45,820 bases of DNA from Clostridiaceae bacterium (GTDB lineage: Bacteria > Bacillota > Clostridia > Lachnospirales > Lachnospiraceae): positions 1 to 45,820 of the forward strand of contig JAJQGL010000102.1 of the NCBI GenBank assembly GCA_021200535.1. The letters run 5' to 3'. The notes beneath the pieces were generated by a model. The model was not told where the DNA came from and did no database searches. It saw nothing but the letters and a program-made list of their open reading frames with translations. The stretch's first letter is position 1. Each line of letters begins with the position of its first letter. The position numbers and the translations under genes are program-made. Shown in pieces: positions 10,413 to 34,322 of this stretch.

Positions 10413-10490
10413 CAGCTCATCAAAACAGCTCGTCAAAACAGTTTATCATAACAGTTTATCAAGACAATTTATTAAGACAGTTCGTTTGTA
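10413..10490 (+). repeat. Six decaying 13-nt tandem repeats
   Basis: Six contiguous 13-nt units, consensus CAGYTYATCAARA, start at 10413, 10426, 10439, 10452, 10465 and 10478. The first two are almost identical and the last is most diverged. They lie between the GT39-like gene and the que leader, in no convincing reading frame. Confidence 0.75.
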
Positions 10491-10558
10491 CCATCCTGTC
10501 TCTAAAAAAAACCAGGGCTGCTAAATGGTTATTTATTTTATCAATGGTGATAGAAAAT

Positions 10559-10585
10559 GGCAGGCTCTGGCCTGCCGCTTTTTTT
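10559..10585 (+). terminator. Intrinsic terminator ahead of the que leader
   Basis: A 7-bp GC stem (GGCAGGC/GCCTGCC, loop TCTG, 10559-10576) is followed by GC and seven T. It would end transcripts of the glycosylation genes. Because the structured que leader starts at the very next base (10586), it could also be the attenuator of the que transcript itself. Confidence 0.7.
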
Positions 10586-10683
10586 GGAATTTGTGCGGAA
10601 GCGTCACAAATTCCGTCCTGCCGGAGCGGAACCTGGTATTTTGCCGGTTCCGTTTGGTGTAAACGCTTCGGAATGGAGGAATT
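10586..10683 (+). promoter_or_regulatory. Structured leader RNA of the que operon (candidate riboswitch-like element)
   Basis: Hairpin A: GGAATTTGTG (10586-10595) pairs perfectly with CACAAATTCC (10605-10614). Its loop segment GAAGCGT (10598-10604) is complementary to ACGCTTC (10663-10669), 5 nt before the Shine-Dalgarno GGAGG (10675-10679). Hairpin B, CGGAACC/GGTTCCG (10627-10633, 10646-10652), sits between. This is a hairpin-loop-to-downstream pseudoknot; an alternative long hairpin extends the same pairing with CAC/GTG and AAA/TTT (10605-10610 with 10653-10659) and excludes hairpin A. The same architecture, with a compensatory change, occurs at 34247-34322 on the other strand. preQ1-II and -III riboswitches have a comparable general topology, but I cannot match their conserved bases from memory. 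Confidence 0.6.
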
Positions 10684-11106
10684 ATGTATCAGATTACAGT
10701 GGAACAAAGTTTTGATTCGGCGCACTTTCTTTCTGACTATCAGGGGAAGTGCAGCAATCTGCACGGACATCGCTGGAGGGTGATTTTTGACATTCAGGGA
10801 GAAACATTGCGCACAGACAGCCAGCTTAGGGGGATGTGCGAAGATTTCTCGGATGTTAGAAAGGTGGTCCGGGATATGCTGGATGAATATGACCATACGC
10901 TTTTGGTTGAACAGGGAAGCCTGAAAGAGAAAACGCTGCAGGCAATGGACGAAGAAGGGTTTGCTATATTGCAGCTGCCGTTTCGCCCTACGGCGGAAAA
11001 TTTTGCAAGGCATTTTTATGATTTGATTTCAGAGAAAGGATATCAGGTGGCGAAGGTTTCTGTCTATGAAACACCTAATAATTGCGCCTCCTATTATGTA
11101 TCATGA
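10684..11106 (+). CDS. queD: 6-carboxy-5,6,7,8-tetrahydropterin synthase QueD
   Basis: 140 aa. Converts dihydroneopterin triphosphate to 6-carboxytetrahydropterin in queuosine/7-deazaguanine synthesis. The zinc ligands are FDSAHFL (His14) and NLHGH (two His near 27-29); the catalytic Cys lies just before (KCSNLHGH). YDHTLL and the C-terminal VYETPNNCA supply further active-site residues. GGAGG lies 5 nt before ATG 10684. The stop overlaps the queE start (ATGA). First gene of queD-queE-folE-queC-queF. Confidence 0.93.
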   Translation: MYQITVEQSFDSAHFLSDYQGKCSNLHGHRWRVIFDIQGETLRTDSQLRGMCEDFSDVRKVVRDMLDEYDHTLLVEQGSLKEKTLQAMDEEGFAILQLPFRPTAENFARHFYDLISEKGYQVAKVSVYETPNNCASYYVS

Positions 11107-33985: not shown

Positions 33986-34246
33986 TTAGGAATGGTCCGG
34001 AAGCTTGCTGAACGTTCCATTTACGGTTCCAAGCCATCCTTCCTCCATAAATTTCAGAATTTCGTATGGATGAATGCCCAGCTCTTCAGAAATCTGCAGG
34101 GCATTGCTGTTTGGATATTCTTTTAAATACTGTACAATATCATCTAGCTGGTCCTCATCCTGGCTGCGGCAGTCGTTGCAGCACAAAGTATGGATTTTGG
34201 ATTTAAAGATTTTGTGGCAGTGTTTGCAGACATTCGTATAAAGCAT
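33986..34246 (-). CDS. Small zinc-ribbon protein with helix-turn-helix-like C-terminus
   Basis: 86 aa. An N-terminal CxxC pair (VCKHCHKIF) and a second CCNDC form a likely zinc ribbon within the first 30 residues. A C-terminal part IVQYLKEYPNSNALQISEELGIHPYEILKFMEEG (given here in outline) looks like a small helix-turn-helix ending in GWLG. The pattern resembles the YvyF-type protein of flagellar operons; this is recognition, not proof. GGAG with 6-nt spacing favours ATG 34246. It lies between cls and ruvA, behind a structured leader that is shared with the que operon. It might bind nucleic acid. Confidence 0.7.
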   Translation of the reverse strand: MLYTNVCKHCHKIFKSKIHTLCCNDCRSQDEDQLDDIVQYLKEYPNSNALQISEELGIHPYEILKFMEEGWLGTVNGTFSKLPDHS

Positions 34247-34322
34247 AATAATCTCCATTCCGGAGCGTTTCACAAGACAGGATGCCGTTAAAGCTATTTG
34301 TGACGCTCCTGCCCAAATAGCC
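34247..34322 (-). promoter_or_regulatory. Structured leader RNA of the zinc-ribbon gene (same family as the que leader)
   Basis: Read on the minus strand. Hairpin A: GCTATTTG pairs with CAAATAGC (34314-34321 with 34293-34300). Its 13-nt loop GGCAGGAGCGTCA compares with TGCGGAAGCGTCA at the que operon. Loop segment GGAGCGT (34303-34309) pairs with downstream ACGCTCC (34262-34268), 5 nt before the GGAG-type ribosome binding site. The block AAACGCTYCGGAATGGAG is shared by both leaders. An alternative 12-bp hairpin (34298-34309 with 34262-34275, 2-nt bulge) excludes hairpin A. The element fills the whole gap after the cls stop, so it must act within an operon transcript. Confidence 0.6.

Follow-up and report, generated by a model that had tools for sequence, protein, structure and literature searches.

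A dispersed, structured repeat of Lachnospiraceae chromosomes that ends in a Shine-Dalgarno sequence, and its candidate role as a translational leader

The translational riboswitches preQ1-II, preQ1-III and SAM-II are built as H-type pseudoknots, in which a hairpin loop pairs with bases lying just before or within the Shine-Dalgarno (SD) sequence. Small interspersed repeats form another group of relevant systems. According to the available sections of PMC3049150, the BOX, RUP and SPRITE repeats of Streptococcus pneumoniae are over-represented between convergent genes, and a MITE is defined by its terminal inverted repeats and target-site duplication. In Beggiatoaceae, where canonical ribosome-binding sites are described as rare, translational regulation has been proposed for TAACTGA repeats (PMC4679880, in the sections available). 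Searches of an open-access literature collection found no description of the repeat family presented here, and the main text of PMC8040213 makes no mention of Lachnospir-, pseudoknot or Shine-Dalgarno.

The window analysed is a stretch of 45,820 nucleotides from a Clostridiaceae bacterium placed by GTDB in the Lachnospiraceae, and it contains two copies of the element (Table 1). A sequence-only reading had described two leaders sharing a hairpin and a 7-bp pairing between its loop and a downstream block. Direct reading confirms the 7-bp pairing in both, and also that the single difference between them is compensatory (A10599-U10668 in one, G34308-C34263 in the other). The 13-nt loop that it described is correct for the copy before the zinc-ribbon gene, where it results from one inner stem mismatch, but not for the queD copy, whose stem closes to a 9-nt loop. 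The inner hairpin, P2, differs in length between copies of the element. Copy 2 is separated by 11 nt from the stop codon (34334) of an upstream cardiolipin synthase reading frame. Its target protein gave no Pfam match at E<=0.001; the adjacent ruvA was identified by TIGR00084 above its cut-off. TIGR03826 scored below its cut-off. The window also carries a tmRNA gene at 199-542 on the minus strand (Rfam RF00023).

Table 1 Features of the two element copies and of the queD leader in the window. S1 is the hairpin, S2 the helix formed by its loop, and R1 the covariance model described in the text.
Feature	Position	Strand	Basis
Element copy 1 (divergent type), S1 to last base before queD start codon	10586..10683	+	R1 57 bits, E 2.8e-13
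Copy 1 S1 hairpin: GGAATTTGTG (10586-10595) / CACAAATTCC (10605-10614)	10586..10614	+	read directly
Copy 1 S1 loop, 9 nt, CGGAAGCGT	10596-10604	+	read directly
Copy 1 S2 5' strand GAAGCGT, inside S1 loop	10598..10604	+	read directly; covariation tests
Copy 1 inner hairpin P2, variable, CGGAACC / GGTTCCG	10627..10652	+	read directly
Copy 1 S2 3' strand ACGCTTC; alternative partner is the SD core	10663..10669	+	read directly; covariation tests
Copy 1 extended Shine-Dalgarno GGAATGGAGG, element 3' end	10670..10679	+	read directly
queD, target gene of copy 1, ATG 10684	10684..11106	+	TIGR03367 above cut-off
Element copy 2 (common type), S1 to last base before zinc-ribbon gene start	34247..34322	-	R1 97.2 bits, E 3.5e-25
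Copy 2 S1 hairpin, one inner mismatch: GGCTATTTGGG (34322-34312) / CACAAATAGC (34302-34293)	34293..34322	-	read directly
Copy 2 S1 loop CAGGAGCGT	34311-34303	-	read directly
Copy 2 S2 3' strand ACGCTCC, partner 34303-34309	34268-34262	-	read directly; covariation tests
Copy 2 extended SD GGAATGGAG	34261-34253	-	read directly
Copy 2 target: small zinc-ribbon protein gene, ATG 34246, immediately before ruvA	33986..34246	-	zinc-ribbon name from cysteines by eye
queD leader motif, terminator 10559-10585	10476-10521	+	

The two copies are members of a large family. The exact core pattern AGCGTCACAAATN{20,50}AAACGCT matches 18 places in the 2.89-Mb genome to which the window belongs, and the reversed pattern none. 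A looser pattern, AGCGTCAN{20,50}AACGCT, has one match in the window against 0.03 expected, and misses the queD copy because its gap limit is 50 nt. A covariance model, R1, was built from the 18 places. In the same genome it gives at least 87 matches at E<=1 and at least 67 at E<=0.01 (150 of 1572 first-look candidates scored). The earlier estimate of at least two members in the genome was a large underestimate, and the R1 search of Lachnospiraceae genomes bears out the expectation of a structured RNA family with further homologues.

At E<=0.01, R1 finds matches in 22 of 41 genomes: 20 of the 25 in the genus (the present one included) and 2 of the 16 in other families. Of these last two, G029 is marginal (E 0.0055) and G031 has 20 matches. 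Within the genus, the number per genome ranges from 0 to 66 (25 genomes, same threshold). Matches at E<=1e-4 are present in 44 of 299 genomes of the family, in each of which up to 15 candidates were scored. A pattern for the S1 loop matches at least 114 stretches among genome contigs. Names among the 80 of these matches listed include Acetatifactor, Eisenbergiella, Roseburia, Lachnospira, Lachnospiraceae bacterium and C-53, and a few of the 80 are labelled Clostridium, Bacillus, Clostridiales or Eubacteriales. The copies are thus many, near-identical and dispersed, and they differ between relatives, as is characteristic of small interspersed repeats. Rfam gave nothing at the gathering score for the leaders in the window or for 11 diverse element loci, and permissive searches of both leaders gave nothing near any gathering score. 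Carriage by phages or plasmids was considered and rejected, since three exact element patterns have no match in viral contigs, and a search of plasmids with one element copy as query found none.

The fold was analysed using five alignments, comprising 209 distinct sequences, of which 176 could be parsed into S1 and a 3' anchor and 33 could not. The S1 loop has 9 nt in 146 of the 176, and in many relatives S2 can be extended to 8–9 bp. When the register of S2 is fixed by sequence landmarks only (142 of the 209 sequences, 52 distinct combinations), 24 cells are changed on both sides, compared to 10.8 in shuffles, with none of 1000 shuffles reaching this value; for the inner seven pairs the numbers are 23 and 8.9, again with 0 of 1000. 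The proportion paired in this register is 84.4%, as against 82.2% after shuffling (6/1000), and the number of pair types is unremarkable (221 of 1000 shuffles). With the register chosen by pairing (68 combinations), 91% is paired and there are 46 both-side changes against 9.8 (0/1000); such a choice favours the structure, and the fixed-register covariation signal is clearly weaker. For S1, fixed landmarks (159 sequences) give 15 both-side changes against 8.5 (1/1000) and 73% paired against 70% (20/1000), the landmark being missing from 50 of the 209 sequences and itself restricting the 3' arm. Pairing-chosen arms (36 arm pairs) give 93% paired and 50 changes against 12.9 (0/1000). The shuffled controls leave sequence relatedness in place throughout. 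S2 is absent from the search model R1, which contains the S1 pairs, so that R1 matches lean towards S1.

The loop-to-downstream pairing is thus supported by compensatory change, in the fixed register as well, which answers the call in the sequence-only reading for a significance test of covariation. Outside the 9-nt class, S2 is retained with quite different letters (TCTGAGCGA/TCGCTCAGA, CTGAGAACG/CGTTCTCGG, CCGCAGGCG/CGTCTGCGG), and a divergent subtype keeps it as CCGCAGGCGTC/GACGCCTGCGG. S1 and S2 together are a predicted H-type pseudoknot immediately 5' of the SD. A 7-bp S2 with a 2-nt first loop fits the classical geometry of such pseudoknots; if the whole 9-nt loop were paired, S1 would have to give way. 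L443 (MT837007.1 6090-7393, reverse complement) also holds, at 597-709, an intact copy of a divergent kind whose S2 reaches 11 bp; MT837007.1 is an unannotated, unverified fecal scaffold named 'Bacteriophage sp.'.

Directly 5' of S1, 13 of the 54 rows from the present genome have a further hairpin, a module that occurs as two sequence types, AAATAAGCTTGATAGCT... and AAATCACACTGATGTGCTGATT... (L019, L020, L024, L030, L031, L032, L034, L035, L036, L037, L041, L042 and L077), and by eye L039 also has one. The module is optional, and the family is therefore modular. In some copies it is preceded by a second SD-like sequence, GGAATGGAGATTAGTGTG. Control by a leader peptide was considered, as a short reading frame can start at GGAATGGAGATTAGTGTG where a copy has the upstream module; by eye the frame differs between copies, and it is therefore not taken as conserved.

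In 167 of 205 R1 matches, a start codon lies 4–10 nt after the SD core and opens a reading frame that is at least 50 amino acids long or continues to the contig end, compared to 364 of 3207 random places (11%). The 205 matches, duplicates included, come from 52 of the 67 places in the present genome (54 matches), 68 loci in relatives (71), 29 in the wider family (30) and 48 of the 114 pattern-found stretches (50). Of the other 38, the SD expression failed to catch 15, and in 23 the frame is short or no start codon lies at that distance; copies in the present genome that have no properly placed start codon are L023, L078, L088, L091 and L094. The placement just before a ribosome-binding site that was first noted for two leaders therefore holds for most matches. 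Five copies (L011, L023, L025, L027, L038) begin 0–9 nt past the stop codon of an upstream frame on the same strand, of at least 295 codons from stop to stop. This leaves no room for a promoter between the upstream stop and the element, and for these five the promoter may lie inside the upstream gene.

The genes that follow the element are diverse. Those identified using Pfam include phosphofructokinase, galactokinase, a glutamine amidotransferase, a UvrD-type helicase, a MATE transporter and CodY; queD was identified using NCBIfam, and proB, proC, trpF, feoB, rseP, uppP, dnaJ, fabF, accA and others were named by eye. No common function is apparent among them. In G000 as well as in G020 the element precedes the same two small genes (L085/L119 and L082/L117, with similar proteins), a recurrence which implies that some copies may be old and common by descent.

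The 3' strand of S2 is also complementary to the SD, in a hairpin of only 4 bp (CTCC-GGAAT-GGAG). The sole real covarying variant of this hairpin is CTCA-GAAA-TGAG, which 6 sequences have, with a TGGG form in one more. Nested folding of 119 sequences gives a mean probability of 0.25 that the SD core is unpaired with S1 alone, and of 0.52 when the S2 strand is taken. The rise in accessibility is moderate, and is reversed in some copies, for example L002, L011 and L017.

Comparison of orthologous loci shows that the element is present in some relatives and missing in others. queD is found in 20 of 28 congeners, and within the flanks fetched the element is present at the window queD only, being missing from all 19 other congeneric loci. 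ruvA is found in 25 of 28; here G000 is the only genome with the element before the zinc-ribbon gene, and G020 the only one with it directly before ruvA, some of the flanks in this comparison being cut by contig ends (414 nt upstream in G042). The ruvA loci gave one weak, sub-threshold R1 match (L313, E 0.069). Among 15 codY loci, one of them a fragment, the element is present only in G006, and the orthologue in its close relative G019, with a protein 92% identical, has a 25-nt spacer instead.

The most detailed comparison is at a lipoprotein gene, where the element is present in G006 and missing in G019 and G024, the flanks being 80–86% identical. Here about 32 nt of spacer in G019 correspond to about 103 nt of element, and the 3' junction falls within the SD and leaves the start codon untouched. 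The G024 spacer is longer, and by eye it contains a small hairpin reminiscent of S1 (ATTTGCG...CGCAAAT); the last bases of both spacers are GCATAGAAATGAGGAG, which faintly resembles an element subtype; for these reasons the 'empty' sites could be decayed copies. R1 finds nothing in either spacer. No target duplication is seen at this junction, the one examined, for which the empty site is imperfect, and no inverted termini were seen by eye at the ends of the element. A further locus, L054, used as a DNA query, gave no usable empty site. Taken together, the comparisons of orthologous loci fit a mobile element that would replace the spacer of a gene as far as its SD.

Some copies appear to keep only their 3' end. 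In the present genome the 3' anchor CGCTYCGGAATGGRG occurs 57 times with at most one mismatch (control 1), and the S1 core 33 times with at most two (control 0). An S1 core lies upstream of 29 of these anchors and is missing at the other 28. By eye, these 28 consist of one full copy with a diverged S1 (C32:12689), three cut inside S1 (C41:2769, C82, C69), four cut in the P2 region (C67:51199, C108, C95, C5:12454) and 20 with only the last 20–25 nt in common with the element. These 20 could in part be ordinary ribosome-binding sites under selection, or another subfamily. Conversely, four S1 cores are found with no anchor, of which three have a diverged 3' end (L033, L044, L077) and one truly lacks it (L410). 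The same one-sided loss of the 5' part is seen in a 3'-anchored alignment, from which 7 of 54 rows were dropped for having no anchor, and in which the early ends of L011, L015, L079 and L085 reflect divergence rather than truncation. Over the 25 congeners the anchor counts track the R1 matches (Spearman 0.86); the 15-mer anchor does not occur in any of the five congeners that have no R1 match, and G001 and G013 have R1 matches but no anchor. A common native SD was considered as the source of the 3'-only copies, and is disfavoured because the anchor is absent from those five congeners. Four 3'-only copies in G000, C78:3804 (L454), C44:58880 (L445), C50:23883 (L447) and C84:3530 (L455), have a common piece, GCGGCG...CTTTTTCAAT, before CGYTYCGG, which at C78:3804 can form a simple GGAGCG/CGCTCC hairpin. 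Copies with this piece are perhaps a further subfamily that has no S1.

On the basis of these observations we hypothesise, with moderate confidence, that the element is a dispersed, SD-anchored leader that puts the translation of whichever gene it lands on under a choice between pseudoknot and SD hairpin. This builds on the computed family and fold, the position at start codons, the lineage-dependent copy number, the presence and absence at orthologous loci, and the 3'-only copies. Selection for usable ribosome-binding sites could explain part of the same picture. The repeats, of about 80–130 bp, have multiplied in many Lachnospiraceae chromosomes. On the 3' side, copies end in an extended Shine-Dalgarno (CGCTYCGGAATGGAG) that is followed within a few bases by the start codon of whichever gene comes next, and a copy would so become the ribosome-binding leader of that gene. 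The element itself is presumably transcribed. In the mRNA, the S1 loop would pair through S2, over at least 7 bp, with the bases just 5' of the SD, and P2 would sit in the long third loop. Two states may then alternate: with the pseudoknot formed the SD would be free, and with it open the SD would be sequestered in the hairpin. In this way the element would set translation for many unrelated genes, or make it respond to a single common condition; the direction of the effect and the signal are presumed parts of the model. New copies may be captured at existing SDs by short homology, or arise by copying from the 3' end.

A bolder form of the same idea, which we put forward tentatively and consider unlikely, is that of a ribosome-binding site that spreads itself. 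It would be a mobile leader RNA copied from its 3' SD end, by reverse copying or by short-homology capture at the SD present in front of every gene, which would give rise to the 5'-less copies and place dozens of unrelated genes in one genome under one pseudoknot switch.

If the hypothesis is correct, these gut bacteria harbour a mobile element that replaces the regions where translation starts rather than disrupting genes. Genes as unrelated as those for glycolysis, amino-acid synthesis, DNA repair and transport would have gained one structured leader, and translational control would evolve by the copying of a ready-made module. The differences between species offer pairs with and without the element for testing. 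There would also be a warning for riboswitch searches, in that a structured RNA upstream of a pathway gene is not necessarily a sensor for the pathway concerned.

The first alternative is a true regulon, in which a trans-acting factor (a CsrA- or S1-like RNA-binding protein, or a small RNA) reads the loop of S1 together with the GGA at the SD, and common control is the reason why the leaders persist. The main type does have GGA both in the hairpin loop and at the SD (GRA in the loop more generally), the S1 loop and SD region are conserved beyond what pairing alone requires, and the place before start codons is fixed. However, several subtypes, such as GAAGC and TGAGC, change the loop GGA yet keep S2. 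The target genes have no apparent function in common, congeneric orthologues of the three targets tested (queD, zinc-ribbon/ruvA and codY) are without the leader, and the copy number varies from 0 to 66 within one genus. We therefore regard this explanation as unlikely.

An ordinary interspersed repeat of the MITE or BOX type, with no regulatory role of its own and a position that reflects only the insertions that are tolerated, would account for the lineage-specific, near-identical copies, for their patchy distribution, and for the modular build with an optional upstream hairpin and P2 inserts. We consider it about as unlikely as the regulon. The element ends at the SD in a single orientation in 167 of 205 matches, unlike BOX, RUP and SPRITE as the available sections of PMC3049150 describe them; its S2 subtypes are kept by compensatory change; and no inverted termini were seen by eye, nor a target duplication at the one junction examined, with its imperfect empty site.

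A third possibility is that the fold acts in the DNA, as a hairpin for a recombinase or single-strand transposase, with the RNA structure incidental. The element looks mobile, and hairpin ends are used by some single-strand transposition systems. Such a role is nevertheless very unlikely, as placement is specific for strand and position beside the SD and start codon, and the end that is retained is the SD end, not the hairpin end.

The weakest is a metabolite riboswitch of the preQ1 or another type, which the aptamer-plus-SD layout, the H-type pseudoknot adjoining the SD and the one copy before queD might suggest, and which has hardly any probability left given the lack of an Rfam match, the dozens of unrelated targets in one genome, the absence of the element from all 19 other congeneric queD loci, and a loop that varies as long as pairing holds, leaving few invariant positions for a ligand pocket. 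The preQ1-type ligand suggested in the sequence-only reading is likewise not supported: the covariance models of the preQ1 family (Rfam RF00522 and relatives) match neither leader, at gathering or even at E<=10, and the target genes are not confined to queuosine synthesis or transport.

The que context is more plausibly explained, as queuosine control, by a separate queD leader than by the element. A conserved motif, AGTTC-N8..16-CCTGTC, lies upstream of queD in 16 of 20 congeneric loci. At most of these, TATAAA and an A-rich tail come next, and many have a T-rich terminator as well (the tail and the terminators were identified by eye). Element copy 1 sits between the terminator of the window leader and queD. 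The window motif weakly resembles a preQ1-I aptamer, scoring 10.9 bits against Rfam PreQ1, for which the gathering score is 39, and the queD leader is possibly a divergent preQ1 riboswitch lying below the Rfam threshold.

In its pairing of a hairpin loop with the SD region, the element resembles preQ1-II, preQ1-III and SAM-II. Those riboswitches each serve one ligand and a coherent set of genes, whereas the genes behind the element form no coherent set, and the element is scattered through genomes as a repeat. The Beggiatoaceae TAACTGA repeats, as presented in the available part of PMC4679880, are similar in that many copies lie within a few bases of the start codons of functionally unrelated genes; they differ in being heptamer direct repeats, with no such pseudoknot in that account, from other phyla. 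Like BOX, RUP and SPRITE, which the available sections of PMC3049150 describe as co-transcribed and likely to affect neighbouring genes, the element is a small, structured, modular interspersed repeat that has proliferated in one lineage, and we liken its candidate effect on adjacent genes to theirs. Unlike them, it mostly has a single orientation, in which it is anchored at the SD and start codon; its 5' part is often missing, and the ribosome-binding site belongs to the element itself.
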